The notes under the pieces are model-generated. The model saw nothing but the letters and a program-made list of their open reading frames with translations. It was not told the origin of the DNA and searched no databases. The translations under genes and the position numbers were made by a program. From the IMG/VR virus record IMGVR_UViG_3300035459_000078, positions 1 to 21,625 of that record: a stretch of 21,625 nucleotides of DNA; one strand, 5' to 3'. This DNA comes from a virus. Below are positions 3,661 to 20,676 of this stretch, one piece after another; positions within the stretch are counted from its first letter, which is position 1; the number at the start of each line of letters is the position of its first letter.

Positions 3661-3995
3661 AATCACCTAAATCATCCTGCGAAATGTCAAATAAATTATT
3701 GCAAGAATGTTTTGCGAAGATACCAGGCTTTATGCTTCGTAATCATTCCGTAACCACATCATCTATTTATTGCAAAATGCCAGATGGCTATAGTTTGCGT
3801 ATTGGCGATCATAAAGGACGAGAAAAGTATTCATATAAATATAACCTTGATCCAAATATAAAAAGAAAGGGTTATTGGAAAAAGGAATATAATAAAATAA
3901 ATAAGCGTGATTATTGGAGATATTATACAGGGAATGTGGATGATTTGATTGAAACATTGAATAGCAGAAAATGGAATAAGGAGATGGCAAAATGA
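3657..3995 (+). CDS. Hypothetical protein, aromatic and basic
   Basis: The product is 112 residues, rich in Tyr, Lys and Trp. An unusual Lys/Tyr/Asn stretch (about 55-90) suggests a nucleic-acid-binding surface, but no fold is recognised. The start overlaps the previous stop (ATGA) and has no good ribosome binding site of its own, so it probably depends on coupling; an internal ATG at 3684 is the alternative. It ends in an ATGA overlap with the gene at 3992, within the group between primase and SNF2-like helicase. Function unknown. Confidence 0.5.
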   Translation: MKSPKSSCEMSNKLLQECFAKIPGFMLRNHSVTTSSIYCKMPDGYSLRIGDHKGREKYSYKYNLDPNIKRKGYWKKEYNKINKRDYWRYYTGNVDDLIETLNSRKWNKEMAK

Positions 3996-5720: not shown

Positions 5721-5748
5721 AAAGATAGTATATAATATAGATAGGAGG
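5721..5748 (+). promoter_or_regulatory. Recurrent AT-rich element ending in a ribosome binding site (copy 2)
   Basis: This is the best copy: AAAGATAG, TATAAT at 5731-5736, ATAGAT and AGGAGG at 5743-5748, followed by ATG at 5754. If it is a -10 box, transcription would start close to the A at 5743, leaving almost no leader. The best -35 candidate (TTACAT, 5707-5712, 18 nt spacing) is poor. Confidence 0.55.
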
Positions 5749-7176: not shown

Positions 7177-7532
7177 AAGTAAAACAAACTACTTTTTATC
7201 CGGGTGGTAATTGTTTATCGGCTTGCTTCGCTTCTATATTTGAAAAAGATATAAATGATATTCCTGATTTTATTGGTATGAAGGATTTTTGGGATCAAGT
7301 AATAGAATATTTAGATAGTATTGGATATGAATATAATGGATTGATAAGATTTAATAAAGAATATGATAGATATATAAAGGATGGGTATTATATTGTTATG
7401 GGAAAATCAGAACGCGGATGCAATCATGTTTGTATTTATAAAGAAAGTAAATTAGTATTCGATCCCCATCCTAGTGATTTAGGTTTAATGTGCGAAGATT
7501 GGATTTTAGATATAGTTAAACAAAATGAATAA
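7170..7532 (+). CDS. Papain/C39-like phage protein
   Basis: The product is 120 residues. Gly-Gly-Asn-Cys (Cys15) opens a helix with Ala-Cys-Phe-Ala-Ser, followed by Asn-His-Val (His86) and Phe-Asp-Pro-His-Pro-Ser (Asp98). This Cys...His...Asp order and spacing fit the papain-like fold of C39-type peptidases and transglutaminase-like proteins. I recall similar small phage proteins with Gly-Asn-Cys and Asp-Pro-His-Pro-Ser that are usually listed as hypothetical. Whether it cuts peptides, isopeptides or nothing cannot be told. It overlaps the zincin-like gene by 7 nt and the HNH gene by 8 nt. Confidence 0.55.
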   Translation: MVKVKQTTFYPGGNCLSACFASIFEKDINDIPDFIGMKDFWDQVIEYLDSIGYEYNGLIRFNKEYDRYIKDGYYIVMGKSERGCNHVCIYKESKLVFDPHPSDLGLMCEDWILDIVKQNE

Positions 7533-7860
7533 AGATAGATTAAAAATATATATTATGTTCGATGGCAGATGTGCTTATTGTGGAGATAAATTGAAAAGTA
7601 ATTTTCATATAGATCATGTTAATCCTAAATATAAAGGTGGAATCAATAGTAAGGAAAATTTATATCCTGCTTGTCCTCGATGTAATATCAGAAAATCGGT
7701 CTTTACTATTGAACAATTTAGACACGAAATATCTGAACAAGTGAATAGGCTTAGAAGAAATTCAAATCAATTTAGATTGGCCGAATCGTTTAATCAAATT
7801 TACGTAACAAATTATCCGGTAGTATTCTGGTTTGAAAAATATAATGAGGGAAACTTTTGA
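7525..7860 (+). CDS. HNH endonuclease
   Basis: The product is 111 residues. An N-terminal HNH domain (about 13-60) shows Cys16-x2-Cys19, Asp30-His31-x2-Pro, Asn45-Leu and Cys50-x2-Cys53-Asn54. These are the structural zinc ligands and the catalytic beta-beta-alpha metal core. The remaining 50 or so residues are helical and Arg/Asn/Gln-rich and probably bind DNA. It could be a homing nuclease, a replication or recombination nuclease, or part of phage DNA processing. Sitting directly before the replicative helicase and sharing its overlap (TTGA at 7857-7860) does not decide this. Confidence 0.85.
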   Translation: MNKDRLKIYIMFDGRCAYCGDKLKSNFHIDHVNPKYKGGINSKENLYPACPRCNIRKSVFTIEQFRHEISEQVNRLRRNSNQFRLAESFNQIYVTNYPVVFWFEKYNEGNF

Positions 7861-9492: not shown

Positions 9493-10371
9493 TTGAATAA
9501 CGATGAACAATCACCAAAACAAAAACCTCTAATCATTCATGGTGGGGCCCCTATAACTTCTCAAAAACAAATGCAAAAATATAATAAAAAAATACCTGTA
9601 TTGATTCCATTTGATATGATCCCAAAAAATAAAAAAATAGAATGGCAAAAATGGTTTAATTATTTATTCATTGATTCAGGTGCATTTTCAGTATCACAAA
9701 ATAATGCATCTATAAATCTAAAAAAATACATTAATTTTATAAAAGACAATGAAGATAAAATAAGCAATTATGCTTCATTAGATGTGGTAGGAGATGGTGA
9801 AACTTCTTTACATAATTGGAAAGTAATGAGAAAAGCTGGATTATTGCCTATTCCTGTTTTTCATGATGGAGAAAATTTTGATATATTAAAAGAATATACA
9901 GATAATTGTTCATATATCGGATTGGGTGCAGTAGCATATAAATCAAATAAAAGCAGAGTCATATTTTTTGATAAGGTTTTTTCTATGTTCCCTGATAGAA
10001 CTAAAGTAGGATTTCATGGATTCGGAGTAATGGATTTAGGGTTGTTACAAAGATATCCATGGAAAAGCATAGACTCTTCTTCTGTTACAACTATTGCAAG
10101 GTTTGGCGGCATAATTATTGGAAATAAATTATTAAAATTAGCAATATCAAAAAGAGTTAATCAAGAATCTGTAAGAAAATGGCACTCAGAATATAATGAA
10201 CAATATGTAAAAAATGAATTCATAAAATATGGATGGAATTATGAATTAGCTAGAGAAGGTACACAAGAAGGATTATTTGAAAGGCAATTTTTTAATTTAG
10301 ATACAGTTAATGAATATGCAAAAATACCTAATGTGTTTAATCCTGTTTTAAGAGTAAATACTTTATTTTAA
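9493..10371 (+). CDS. dpdA: DpdA-like DNA transglycosylase (TGT fold)
   Basis: Proteins of this family swap guanine in DNA for a 7-deazaguanine such as preQ0 or preQ1. From TTG at 9493 the product is 292 residues. Visible TGT-type features are Asp61-Ser-Gly-Ala-Phe (matching Asp-Ser-Gly-Gly-Phe in tRNA-guanine transglycosylases), Leu-Asp97-Val-Val, a Gly-Leu-Gly-Ala substrate loop (143-146), His-Gly-Phe-Gly (175-178) and Ser-Ile-Asp194-Ser-Ser-Ser, where Asp194 is the likely nucleophile. The zinc-binding Cys cluster of tRNA enzymes is absent, as in phage DpdA. AGAGGA at 9478-9483 supports TTG; an ATG at 9400 would overlap the previous gene. The transporter downstream supports the call. A tRNA substrate is not excluded. 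Confidence 0.8.
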   Translation: MNNDEQSPKQKPLIIHGGAPITSQKQMQKYNKKIPVLIPFDMIPKNKKIEWQKWFNYLFIDSGAFSVSQNNASINLKKYINFIKDNEDKISNYASLDVVGDGETSLHNWKVMRKAGLLPIPVFHDGENFDILKEYTDNCSYIGLGAVAYKSNKSRVIFFDKVFSMFPDRTKVGFHGFGVMDLGLLQRYPWKSIDSSSVTTIARFGGIIIGNKLLKLAISKRVNQESVRKWHSEYNEQYVKNEFIKYGWNYELAREGTQEGLFERQFFNLDTVNEYAKIPNVFNPVLRVNTLF

Positions 10372-10387
10372 GGGGGCAAGGTTAATC

Positions 10388-10424
10388 AGCGGTTCGTAGA
10401 ATCCCGCTAATCAAAAACAAAGGA
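10388..10424 (+). promoter_or_regulatory. PreQ1-I riboswitch controlling the transporter
   Basis: The leader folds as a type I preQ1 aptamer. P1 is AGCGG (10388-10392) with CCGCT (10404-10408), 5 perfect pairs. The 11-nt loop (10393-10403) ends in C10403, the position of the C that pairs with preQ1 in known aptamers. An A-rich tail (AATCAAAAACAAAGGA, 10409-10424) follows and includes the ribosome binding site AAGGA, 7 nt before ATG 10432. Ligand binding should lock the tail into the pseudoknot and block translation. No terminator hairpin is seen, which fits translational control. Confidence 0.88.
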
Positions 10425-10431
10425 TTGAATT

Positions 10432-11118
10432 ATGGAAAACGTGAACAAAGAAAAACTGTTGCCAATGATTACTGGAGCTTTTGTAGGTATTTTGATTTTA
10501 TCAAATATCCTCGCTGCTAAGATGGTGCAGATTGGGCCTTTTGTGTTTGATGGGGGGACATTGCTTTTTCCTCTATCATATATTTTTGGCGATTGCCTTA
10601 CCGAAGTATATGGGTATAAAGCATCGAGAAAAGTTATATGGACGGGTTTTGCTATGATTATTTTAATGGCAGTCAATATCTGGATTATTGGTTATTTGCC
10701 TGCTGAAAAATCATGGGTGTTTCAAGATTCATATAACAATATTTTAATGATGGTGCCGAGAATTGTACTAGCATCTTTATGCGGATTTTTTGCTGGGGAA
10801 TTTTCTAATTCATTTGTACTTTCTAAAATGAAAGTATTAACCAATGGGAAACATTTATGGATGCGTACTATCGGGTCTACAGTGGTTGGGGAATTTGTTG
10901 ATAGTCTTTTATTTGTAATGATTGCTTTCTTAGGGCTATACCCTACTTCAGTTTTAATTGTCATGGCAATATCAAATTATCTTTTCAAGACATTTATTGA
11001 AGTTGTTTTCACTCCTATTACATATGCAGTGATCAGATTCATGAAAAAGCAAGAAGGAATTGATACTTTTGATACAGGATATAAATCAAAAGATTATAAT
11101 CCTTTTGTTCTAAAATAA
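10432..11118 (+). CDS. yhhQ: YhhQ/VUT-family queuosine-precursor transporter
   Basis: This 228-residue inner-membrane protein probably imports preQ0, preQ1 or a related 7-deazaguanine. Family hallmarks are Ser-Asn-x2-Ala-Ala-Lys (24-30), Phe-Pro-Leu-Ser-Tyr-x-Phe-Gly-Asp-x2-Thr-Glu-Val-Tyr-Gly-Tyr (46-62), and Arg145 followed by Gly-Ser and Gly-Glu-x2-Asp-Ser (148-158). About six hydrophobic segments fit the family (near 12-30, 42-56, 67-89, 106-126, 150-170, 173-200). The C-terminus is short and hydrophilic. It lies 60 nt after the DpdA-like gene behind a preQ1-I riboswitch, which points to preQ1 or a close precursor as cargo. No queC, queD, queE or folE gene is in the window, so the phage probably relies on imported or host-made base. 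Confidence 0.85.
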   Translation: MENVNKEKLLPMITGAFVGILILSNILAAKMVQIGPFVFDGGTLLFPLSYIFGDCLTEVYGYKASRKVIWTGFAMIILMAVNIWIIGYLPAEKSWVFQDSYNNILMMVPRIVLASLCGFFAGEFSNSFVLSKMKVLTNGKHLWMRTIGSTVVGEFVDSLLFVMIAFLGLYPTSVLIVMAISNYLFKTFIEVVFTPITYAVIRFMKKQEGIDTFDTGYKSKDYNPFVLK

Positions 11119-11120
11119 TA

Positions 11121-11147
11121 AAAGATAGTATATAATATGTATGAGGG
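11121..11147 (+). promoter_or_regulatory. Recurrent AT-rich element before the clamp leader (copy 4)
   Basis: AAAGATAG, TATAAT at 11131-11136, ATGTAT and GAGGG at 11143-11147 match the other copies. Here the ribosome-binding-like GAGGG is followed by TTG at 11151 rather than by the clamp start. No -35 hexamer is convincing. It probably begins the clamp transcript. Confidence 0.5.
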
Positions 11148-11172
11148 TGATTGAAAAACATTGCCTTCATAC
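11139..11172 (+). other. Stem-loop in the sliding-clamp leader
   Basis: GTATGAGGG (11139-11147) pairs with CCTTCATAC (11164-11172): 9 pairs, one of them G-U. It can be extended inward by wobble pairs to leave a loop of about 10 nt. No T-run follows, so it is not an intrinsic terminator. It would hide the GAGGG of the small reading frame at 11151 and ends 12 nt before the clamp ribosome binding site AGGAG (11185-11189). Confidence 0.45.
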
Positions 11173-11216
11173 ATAATTTTATAAAGGAGAAAATAATACT
11201 TAATGCAACTGAATAA
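11151..11216 (+). CDS. Possible leader peptide overlapping the clamp start
   Basis: TTG at 11151 after GAGGG (11143-11147) opens a 21-codon frame ending at TAA 11214-11216, which overlaps the clamp start (11203) in another frame. The layout matches other uses of the recurrent element, where GGAGG is followed closely by a start codon. The spacing is short (3 nt) and the peptide has no recognisable feature. It could be a translated leader that controls the clamp, or chance. Confidence 0.2.
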   Translation: MKNIAFIHNFIKEKIILNATE

Positions 11217-16780: not shown

Positions 16781-17077
16781 ATGTATACAAAAGATCAATC
16801 AAACAATATCATCAGGCGATGTGCAAAGGTACGAGGAAAGGAATGGTGCTTATTGAAATTGGCCGAGGAATGCTCCGAATTATCATCAAGCATTCTACAA
16901 TATTTGACCAAGAATGATTCCGAGATAAATATACAAAATGAAATGGGCGATGTTGAGATAGCAATAGATATATTGAAAATTATATATAGTAATAAGATTA
17001 TAGATGTTTCAAAGCAAAATAAGTTGGGAAAAATAGATGCAAAAAATAATGAAATAATTCGTAAAGTTAGTATATAA
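16781..17077 (+). CDS. mazG: MazG-like nucleotide pyrophosphohydrolase
   Basis: The product is a 98-residue all-alpha NTP pyrophosphohydrolase, a single domain as in other phage MazG-like proteins. Glu29-Glu30-x2-Glu33 and Glu54-x2-Asp57 form the family magnesium site EExxE...ExxD with the right spacing. It would hydrolyse NTPs or dNTPs, possibly clearing unusual nucleotides or lowering alarmone signals; which of these is not visible. It lies among replication genes, just upstream of SSB, and its last codons overlap a copy of the recurrent TATAAT element. Confidence 0.8.
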   Translation: MYTKDQSNNIIRRCAKVRGKEWCLLKLAEECSELSSSILQYLTKNDSEINIQNEMGDVEIAIDILKIIYSNKIIDVSKQNKLGKIDAKNNEIIRKVSI

Positions 17078-17091
17078 TATATTGAAAGGAG
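17063..17091 (+). promoter_or_regulatory. Recurrent AT-rich element before ssb (copy 5)
   Basis: AAAGTTAG, TATAAT at 17073-17078, then AAAGGAG at 17085-17091 and ATG at 17098. It overlaps the MazG stop. The spacing from hexamer to ribosome binding site is again 6 nt. No -35 hexamer is evident. Confidence 0.5.
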
Positions 17092-18638: not shown

Positions 18639-19013
18639 ATGGCTAGTGTACGTGATCTTGTAGAGGCTGGACTGGATGAGGGACTTGTAAAGCAGGCGGT
18701 GGATGCGGCTGGATTCGAGCGCAAGCGTGGGCGCGGTGGACTTAATCTCGATGCGAAGGGCGTTGCGAAGGTACTCAAGACCTATATTGCACTTCTTGCC
18801 AAGCTCACCACCAAGGCATCCAAGGTAAATCCTGATAAGTTTACCTATGACGATGATGAGGCCGCTGCCCCGAAGGCCAAGGCCGAGAAGAGGCCAGCGC
18901 CTAAGGCCAAGAAGGCAAAGCCCGCCGACGATGAGGAAGATGACGATGAGCCCGAGACCGATGACCAGGATGATGAGGTCGAGGAAGCCGACGACGAGGA
19001 AGAGGACGAGTAA
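18639..19013 (+). CDS. GC-rich gene: basic N-terminus, Lys/Ala/Pro linker, acidic tail
   Basis: The product is 124 residues. Residues 1-68 form a helical Ala/Leu/Lys/Val domain with a basic Arg-Lys-Arg-Gly-Arg-Gly loop (28-33). Residues 76-96 are a Lys/Ala/Pro linker resembling histone H1-like tails. Residues 97-124 are almost wholly Asp/Glu. Codon use is sharply different from most neighbours: GCC, GAG, GAC, CGC and CGT rather than the AGA/AAA-rich pattern. It may be a DNA- or protein-binding factor whose acidic tail mimics DNA, as in gp32-like proteins, or a recent import. The strong AAGGAG is 6 nt from ATG. No family recognised. Confidence 0.65.
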   Translation: MASVRDLVEAGLDEGLVKQAVDAAGFERKRGRGGLNLDAKGVAKVLKTYIALLAKLTTKASKVNPDKFTYDDDEAAAPKAKAEKRPAPKAKKAKPADDEEDDDEPETDDQDDEVEEADDEEEDE

Positions 19014-19276: not shown

Positions 19277-19738
19277 ATGACTAGAGATTTTGAATCAGAT
19301 GTAAAATTCAATAAATACAAGCTTGAAGATGAATGCGAAAAGCACGCAAGCGTCTATTGGTATTGGGCTGATAAACTTGCCAAGGCAAAGAATAATTTAG
19401 GCGATAGCGAAGATGCTTATAAGCTTGTATCGGCACAAAGGGAAATGTTCATTAGGCAGAATTGGAATGAGTCATGGGGTAAGCAGACAGAGGCAGGGGT
19501 AAAGGCACAACTGGAAGGAGATGAGGAATATCTATCTGCCAAGGAAGCTATCAGAAATAATCAGCATGAAGTAAATACTCTTATTGCCGCTGTATCTGCG
19601 ATGGAGCATAGACGCGACATGCTGAAATGTGAAAAGGAACTATTGATCGGCGGATTTTATGCTTCGCCCGATATGAATAAAAAGGATAGTACAAAGTCAG
19701 TTGATAGGGAAATTAACAAGAAGTTGAACAAAAAATGA
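19277..19738 (+). CDS. UvsY-like recombination mediator (tentative)
   Basis: The product is 153 residues and almost entirely helical and charged. The order is an early Leu-Glu-Asp-Glu-Cys-x-Lys-His-Ala helix, Tyr-Trp-Ala-Asp-Lys-Leu-Ala-Lys-Ala-Lys (about 29-38), a middle Thr-Glu-Ala-Gly-Val-Lys-Ala helix, Leu-Ile-Ala-Ala-Val-Ser-Ala-Met-Glu-His-Arg-Arg (about 102-113) and an end motif Gly-Gly-Phe-Tyr-Ala-Ser-Pro. That pattern is common in phage proteins listed as UvsY-like. UvsY helps load recombinase onto ssDNA coated with gp32, and a gp32-like gene lies 1 kb downstream, which supports the call. No UvsX/RecA gene is in the window. AAGGAG is 6 nt from the ATG. Confidence 0.55.
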   Translation: MTRDFESDVKFNKYKLEDECEKHASVYWYWADKLAKAKNNLGDSEDAYKLVSAQREMFIRQNWNESWGKQTEAGVKAQLEGDEEYLSAKEAIRNNQHEVNTLIAAVSAMEHRRDMLKCEKELLIGGFYASPDMNKKDSTKSVDREINKKLNKK

Positions 19739-20676
19739 AATCAAAAACTATTAAAGCTATAATTAGAAATAAAATCGATTCTTGGTTGGATAGTATTGAA
19801 GATGAAACTGTAAAAGATTTGGCCTCAAAAAATACTATTGTAACTGGTGGTTGTATTGCTTCAATGTTACTAAAAGAAAAAGTAAATGATTATGATTTAT
19901 ATTTCAAAAACAAAGAAACTGTAAAGGCATTGGCAGAATATTATATTACCAGATTTAAGGTAAAAAATAGAAGTGGAATAGAATGTAATATTTCTGTTTG
20001 GGATGAAAATGATAGGATAAAAATAGTAATTAAATCTGCCGGTATCGCTAGTGAAGATGGGACTAAAAAGCCTTATGAATATTTTGAATCATCAGCAGAA
20101 GGTGAAGCGTCTAAATATGTATCTGATATTATGCAAGATTCTGAAAAGATAGAAGATACTTATGAAGAAACAGAAAATAAAGCATTAGAAGTAGAGGAGG
20201 AAGGAAAAGAAAAATATCGACCTGTTTTTATGTCTACTAATGCAATTACATTAAGTAATAAAGTTCAATTAGTATTGCGTTTTTATGGCGAACCAGAACA
20301 GATACATGAAAATTATGATTTTGTTCATTGTACTAATTATTGGAAGAGTTGGGATAGTGAATTAATACTAAATCCAAAAGCATTAGAAGCATTATTAGCT
20401 AAAGAATTAATTTATGTTGGTTCTAAATATCCAGTCTGTTCTATTTTTAGAATGCGAAAATTTATTAATCGCGGATATACTATAAACGCTGGTCAAATAG
20501 TAAAAATGTGTATGCAGATTTCGGCTTTAGATTTAACTGATATAAAAGTATTAGAGGATCAACTAACTGGAGTAGATTGTGCTTATTTTCTGGAGGTAAT
20601 TAGCAAACTAAAAGATAATGACCCTGAAAAAATTAATTATGCTTATCTAGTAGAAGTTATTGATCGAATGTTCTAA
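19735..20676 (+). CDS. Nucleotidyltransferase-like phage protein
   Basis: The product is 313 residues. Thr-Gly-Gly-Cys-Ile-Ala-Ser (37-43) followed by Asn-Asp52-Tyr-Asp54-Leu-Tyr-Phe fits the Gly-Gly/Ser...Asp-x-Asp signature of the polymerase-beta-type nucleotidyltransferase fold. An acidic insert (about 115-155) separates this from a conserved-looking second half (Val-Leu-Arg-Phe-Tyr-Gly-Glu, His-Cys-Thr-Asn-Tyr-Trp, Gly-Ser-Lys-Tyr-Pro) that I associate with a widespread but uncharacterised phage family. The substrate is unknown: nucleotides, RNA ends or protein are all possible. It overlaps the UvsY-like gene by 4 nt and sits just before the gp32-like gene. Confidence 0.65.
   Translation: MKSKTIKAIIRNKIDSWLDSIEDETVKDLASKNTIVTGGCIASMLLKEKVNDYDLYFKNKETVKALAEYYITRFKVKNRSGIECNISVWDENDRIKIVIKSAGIASEDGTKKPYEYFESSAEGEASKYVSDIMQDSEKIEDTYEETENKALEVEEEGKEKYRPVFMSTNAITLSNKVQLVLRFYGEPEQIHENYDFVHCTNYWKSWDSELILNPKALEALLAKELIYVGSKYPVCSIFRMRKFINRGYTINAGQIVKMCMQISALDLTDIKVLEDQLTGVDCAYFLEVISKLKDNDPEKINYAYLVEVIDRMF

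Follow-up and report, generated by a model that had tools for sequence, protein, structure and literature searches.

A candidate preQ1-I class riboswitch in the leader of a phage-borne queuosine precursor transporter gene

Anatomy and predicted action of the yhhQ leader

Judging from its sequence, the leader of a phage yhhQ gene very probably contains a preQ1-I class riboswitch (10388 to about 10424, 37 nt) that would repress translation of the gene when preQ1, and perhaps also preQ0, is plentiful. Known in its class and unusual in its place, the riboswitch is very likely real. It lies in the window, by which we mean the whole stretch of 21,625 nucleotides that was analysed, an AT-rich virus record of 21.6 kb (31% GC; IMG/VR record IMGVR_UViG_3300035459_000078). 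The leader itself is the 60-nt gap between the stop codon of a dpdA-like gene, which ends at 10371, and yhhQ. An earlier note on this DNA had named a 5-bp P1, an 11-nt loop ending in C10403 and an A-rich tail running into the Shine-Dalgarno sequence, and all of these parts were located on the plus strand. The 5' strand of P1 (AGCGG, 10388-10392) and its 3' strand (CCGCU, 10404-10408) form five Watson-Crick pairs, identified by direct reading and by covariation over 14 leaders. Between them lies the 11-nt loop UUCGUAGAAUC (10393-10403), delimited by direct reading, the RF00522 alignment and a leave-one-out model, whose last base, C10403, is the predicted ligand-specificity base; the first loop base, U10393, and C10403 are both kept in position across the 14 aligned leaders. 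A loop of this length falls within the class range of about 9-13 nt. The alignments place the A-rich tail (L3), AAUCAAAAAC, at 10409-10418, where it ends in the conserved tail C10418 and is followed by the Shine-Dalgarno sequence AAAGGA (10419-10424, direct reading), a 7-nt spacer and the yhhQ ATG at 10432. The yhhQ start is thereby no more than 14 bases past the riboswitch tail. The earlier span of 10388-10434 was right as to where the element is, but its end runs into the start codon, and the element stops at about 10424.

By analogy with solved preQ1-I switches, AAAGGA is predicted to be masked by a pseudoknot. The ligand preQ1 would be read by C10403 together with tail bases (by analogy with PMC11625349, PMC8752633 and PMC10622847), its binding would close an H-type pseudoknot in which the tail, in the region of the Shine-Dalgarno sequence, pairs with bases of the loop, and the masked sequence would block the ribosome, a translational OFF response by which precursor import would stop once the supply is abundant. 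The element lies beyond the end of the dpdA reading frame and would act at the start of yhhQ, so that dpdA, translated from a start site of its own, would stay on and its product would continue to place the 7-deazaguanine base in phage DNA; the earlier note had likewise suggested that an element downstream of the DpdA-like gene would control the importer alone. The phage would import precursor on demand instead of making it.

A scan for terminator-like structures found no intrinsic terminator between dpdA and yhhQ, and a transcriptional switch was rejected for this reason. The scan did find a strong hairpin (11136-11175, plus strand) in the interval between yhhQ and the sliding-clamp gene, which may be the transcript end; L003, the nearest diverged viral relative, carries at the corresponding position a hairpin that differs in sequence.

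Gene content of the contig

Both flanking genes proved to be what the earlier note had called them. The product of yhhQ (10432-11118, plus strand), a queuosine precursor (preQ0/preQ1) transporter, matched PF02592 (E 1.5e-54; 184.9 bits against a cut-off of 27.2) and the equivalog family TIGR00697, "queuosine precursor transporter" (120.6 bits; cut-off 50.95). The dpdA-like gene (7-deazaguanine DNA transglycosylase; 9493-10371, plus strand) has an inferred TTG start at 9493 in a frame that is open from 9388. Its protein matched phrog_887 (phage queuine transglycosylases) with an E-value of 1.5e-35 and gave no match in Pfam or NCBIfam, and its residues D66 (in DSGAF) and D199 (in SxDS) are invariant in six proteins, namely its own and five other phage DpdA-like sequences. 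It is predicted to insert 7-deazaguanine into phage DNA. The phage setting was likewise borne out, as the window is otherwise a replication module of phage-type genes that encodes a primase, an SNF2-type helicase, a DnaB-like helicase and a clamp and also holds a DNA methyltransferase, Pol III alpha, SSB and a clamp loader. Searches with the MS1 proteins found no QueC, QueD, QueE or FolE homologue in the window, which may be an incomplete genome; from this, salvage is the likely source of the precursor.

The sequence GATAGTATATAAT occurs at 5724-5736, 11124-11136 and 17066-17078 (two exact copies and one with a single mismatch), each time shortly ahead of a plus-strand gene start, and the copy upstream of the clamp gene is kept in L003 too. 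It is possibly a phage promoter element, with a count only mildly above chance.

Evidence that the element is not a chance hairpin

The earlier note had proposed to abandon the riboswitch if no Rfam hit rose above threshold, and formally this is what happened: nothing in the window reached a gathering threshold. RF00522, the best family in the leader, covered all 45 model positions (1-45) with 26.4 bits, short of its gathering score of 39 bits. This miss carries less weight because the same cut-off also misses the yhhQ leaders of spirochaetes, Moorella and Sporotomaculum, which have the same layout. Across the 21.6-kb record the leader was the sole RF00522 match (E 2.9e-5 for this family alone), and the location of the match, at the exact spot expected ahead of a preQ1 transporter gene, was counted in favour of a switch.

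Three further comparisons addressed the element itself. A descriptor (a 5-bp stem, a loop of the form U...C, AAAA in the tail and then a Shine-Dalgarno sequence) matched 7 of the 40 leaders of viral yhhQ genes; outside the leaders, in 633 kb of viral DNA with both strands counted, it occurred six times, a background in viral loci of about 0.0024 per leader of 250 nt; as the descriptor was drafted after some leaders had been seen, the evidence lies in the contrast and not in the exact number. A leave-one-out covariance model, constructed from 13 other yhhQ leaders with the window excluded, had its top match in the window at 10386-10425 (25.6 bits, E 6e-4; the runner-up scored 14.3 bits) and ranked this segment first across 268 kb of viral yhhQ loci. 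Finally, over 14 leaders including that of the window, P1 accumulated 15 double changes as against 3.4 in shuffles, with four of its five pairs changing on both sides and 100% of cells paired, and shifting the partner strand abolished the signal. Tandem units, described below, were excluded from these pair counts because MAFFT misaligned them. The folding energy of the leader was ordinary (z +1.1), as expected of a 5-bp hairpin plus pseudoknot, and was set aside as an uninformative test. A chance origin of the element is very unlikely.

Subtype and pseudoknot

The earlier assignment to type I holds for the preQ1-I class and for the recognition bases, and not for the subtype as a whole. All six bases that are listed for the alpha and beta preQ1 sites in type I (PMC8752633, from which the positions were taken) are there: U10393, U10394, U10402, C10403, A10417 and C10418. 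However, the tail reads CAA at 10418-10420 where type I has CUA (U32), the loop has 11 nt where 12 are usual, and the tail C occupies position 10 after P1, as in the spirochaete relatives, and not position 9. The CUA and the 12-nt loop being absent, we have not filed the leader as type I; nor does it have the AC ahead of the P1 3' strand that marks type II, as UC stands at 10402-10403. Read in this way, the subtype is mixed, with type-I pocket letters and a type-II-like tail. For the P2 loop-tail helix the only canonical pairs that can be drawn are G10399-C10418, U10397-A10420 and C10395-G10422, and the best simple duplex reaches just -1.0 kcal/mol, which was counted against a working switch. 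In the Tte riboswitch two of four P2 steps are canonical (PMC11625349).

Leaders on other viral yhhQ genes

PreQ1-I-like leaders were also found in the dpdA-yhhQ gap of the viral loci L014, L017, L033, L036 and L042, whose YhhQ proteins are 25-39% identical to that of the window over the best segment. In all, four viral YhhQ lineages beyond the window's bear such leaders, one of them the tandem clade described below. Three of the leaders in the dpdA-yhhQ gap were also picked up by RF00522 alone: L017 with 24.2 bits, L033 with 21.9 and, weakly, L014 with 12.4. Because L002 is near-identical to the window and L003 (81% identity in YhhQ) is without such a leader, neither establishes conservation of the leader within this phage lineage. 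At 4119-5540 of L003, dpdA is split by an in-frame stop and yhhQ is frame-shifted and apparently without part of its 5' end, reflecting either decay or an assembly error.

MS1, which carries queC, queD, queE and folE genes, and L012, L020 and L034, which likewise have homologues of their own near yhhQ, showed no leader by the descriptor. This fits salvage-specific control, with a few kb read per gene, and many gapless loci of the salvage type are also without a leader. Rfam searches of the phage relatives MS1, phiFN37 and MT836020 returned nothing at the yhhQ leader, and no match came from scanning viral contigs with exact patterns for aptamers like that of the window or of the type-I consensus. 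Two candidates were rejected: the related yhhQ of Faecalibacterium phage Roos has just 8 bases ahead of it, and a text match to a preQ1 riboswitch in phage Seurat was a reference title only, no such element being reported there.

A recurrent gene order of ParB-like, DpdA and YhhQ was seen in L014, L017, L033, L036, L042, L007 and others, which suggests a mobile modification cassette. Downstream of dpdA in L033 there is a short frame (3830-3975) whose beginning, MILFSGGLDSTTALAMA, resembles that of QueC; it precedes the riboswitch, terminates within it and is either a remnant or a small gene.

Tandem leaders in one viral clade

Leaders of two units were found at L038 3869-3940, L039 3863-3937 and L040 3867-3940. 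Unit 1 reads ATTG UUUAGUCCUAC CAAT ... GAGGAU, and unit 2 reads AGUUG UUUAUCCUUAC CAACU ... AAGGAG and is followed by the start codon. A scan with the unit-1 loop recovered 12 viral stretches, eight of which have unit 2 as well, in every case directly ahead of yhhQ; the other four have neither unit 2 nor yhhQ. The further tandem contigs are L177, L178, L179, L181 and L182, giving eight in total. In L181 the unit-1 P1 is GUUG/CAAC instead of AUUG/CAAU, and dpdA sits after yhhQ. The unit-2 loop sequence UCCUU is able to base-pair with AAGGA in the manner of type III, and an alternative pairing of unit-1 AGGAUA with unit-2 UAUCCU (-5.7 kcal/mol) may form a hairpin that links the two units. This clade thus seems to carry two preQ1-I-like aptamers in tandem. 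A 2022 survey places preQ1-I among the classes not found in tandem (PMC9481103), and the tandem form, if true, would be the first for the class.

Taken broadly, salvage phages may repeatedly have put preQ1-I elements on yhhQ, mostly after dpdA, so that import and not insertion would be ligand-controlled, with two type-III-like aptamers in the eight-contig clade, of which unit 2 would bury the Shine-Dalgarno sequence and unit 1 would compete through AGGAUA/UAUCCU. We regard this wider proposal as evenly poised between right and wrong.

Bacterial relatives and alternative explanations

The nearest non-viral YhhQ proteins are spirochaetal, foremost those of Treponemataceae, with identities of up to 75%. 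A leader of the same kind was present in 5 of 30 Treponemataceae loci (L145, L147, L149, L167 and L172) and in a more distant Spirochaetota genome, L125; by the descriptor, the remaining Treponemataceae loci had none. The P1 of L145 and L147 is identical to that of the window, and the L145 leader, CAGCGGTCGCGATTCCCCGCTTTATCAAAACAAGGAG, combines this P1 with nearly the same tail. Related leaders precede yhhQ in Moorella and Sporotomaculum, where RF00522 scored 22.9 and 22.3 bits, respectively, both under the gathering score; the L145, L149 and L167 leaders were not listed by RF00522 at all. These type II-like leaders (L145, L147, L149, L167, L172, L107 and L097, from Treponema, Moorella and Sporotomaculum) share the downstream gene family with the window and resemble its leader in an identical or covarying P1, in tail length and in the ACAA(A)GG ending. 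Their loops start with UCG and several end in AC, whereas that of the window has UUCG at its start and UC at its end. The host is likely to be a spirochaete; the phage protein encoded at 19735-20676 had no match in 274 Treponemataceae genomes and was uninformative on the host. In the YhhQ tree the proteins of the window and of viral L003 form the sister group of the Treponemataceae proteins (100/96 for the pair), and the phage protein lies outside the Treponema subclade whose members bear the riboswitch, so no donor lineage was assigned and capture of a cassette from that subclade is unsupported.

With the same leader on spirochaete yhhQ genes, the element might be a relic, acquired along with yhhQ from a donor resembling spirochaetes, that no longer works in the phage, and it is also true that L003 lost the leader or never had one, that P2 is weak and that the tail departs from both the type I and the type II consensus. 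Yet P1, U10393, C10403, the A-rich tail and the Shine-Dalgarno spacing are intact, and the phage YhhQ is at least 25% diverged from every spirochaete protein found, a distance over which an unmaintained 37-nt element should decay; we consider a relic unlikely. That the contig is a bacterial or other mobile-element segment, and the riboswitch an ordinary bacterial one, is barely credible. The closeness of YhhQ to spirochaete chromosomal genes would fit, as would a metagenomic fragment with no structural genes in view, but phage-type primase, DnaB-like helicase, clamp, Pol III alpha, SSB, clamp loader and methyltransferase genes stand in one AT-rich run, and the DpdA-like protein found one weak match (E 2e-7, 27% identity) in the 274 Treponemataceae genomes.

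A generic hairpin, a small stem ahead of the ribosome-binding site that tunes translation and binds nothing, would be equally short and of equally ordinary folding energy. It would account poorly for the RF00522 E-value within the record, for the first rank in the leave-one-out model, for the covarying homologues or for a downstream gene that is the one controlled by bacterial preQ1-I switches, and we judge it highly improbable.

Relation to known systems

The type I switches of RF00522 in Carnobacterium antarcticum, H. influenzae and N. gonorrhoeae (PMC8752633) share with the window a 5-bp P1 followed by UU, UC before the P1 3' strand and the tail A and C; apart from the loop and tail differences given above, the window's element differs in scoring under the Rfam gathering score and in lying in a phage. 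The type III preQ1-I switch of E. coli likewise controls yhhQ and holds the Shine-Dalgarno sequence in its pseudoknot, but has a short pyrimidine-rich loop with an AC motif (PMC10622847). The window shows nothing of this kind, but the viral tandem leaders, those of L038 and its kin, are similar to the E. coli switch. Control of bacterial yhhQ by preQ1-I riboswitches is established (PMC10622847). For other classes, riboswitches in phages are reported to be rare, and the glutamine riboswitches of Melnitz and Mosig, which are likewise metabolite-sensing RNAs in phage genomes, have another ligand, other genes and no link to DNA modification (PMC9004378). Phage systems for 7-deazaguanine modification also place dpdA beside a phage-borne precursor transporter; the study describing them noted phage YhhQ with no pattern and mentions riboswitches nowhere (PMC6884629). 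No preQ1 riboswitch in a phage was reported in the open-access literature searched. The class and its regulated gene are thus known from bacteria, while that literature yielded neither the phage setting nor its recurrence.

7-deazaguanine DNA modification shields phages from restriction, and a preQ1 sensor on the importer, if true, would match import to supply during infection. The similar elements at the same spot in distantly related phages suggest sensing, by some phages, of the metabolite that they import for DNA marking, and their repeated presence across several lineages of viral YhhQ points to a general strategy.

Additional features

A gene at 18639-19013 encodes an acidic low-complexity protein without a Pfam match and has 56% GC as against 31% for the contig; it is possibly a foreign insert. 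A GIY-YIG endonuclease with NUMOD3 repeats (1606-2643) immediately precedes the primase, and an HNH endonuclease (7525-7860) immediately precedes the DnaB-like helicase; both are likely homing endonucleases. Elsewhere, at 3930-4003 of L011, two repeated units of the form GTCGCAG...ACCCT..CAAAAC stand ahead of a viral yhhQ that is followed by queC, and these resemble a pair of degenerate hairpins of the preQ1-I kind, in the first of which GCAG could pair with CTGC.
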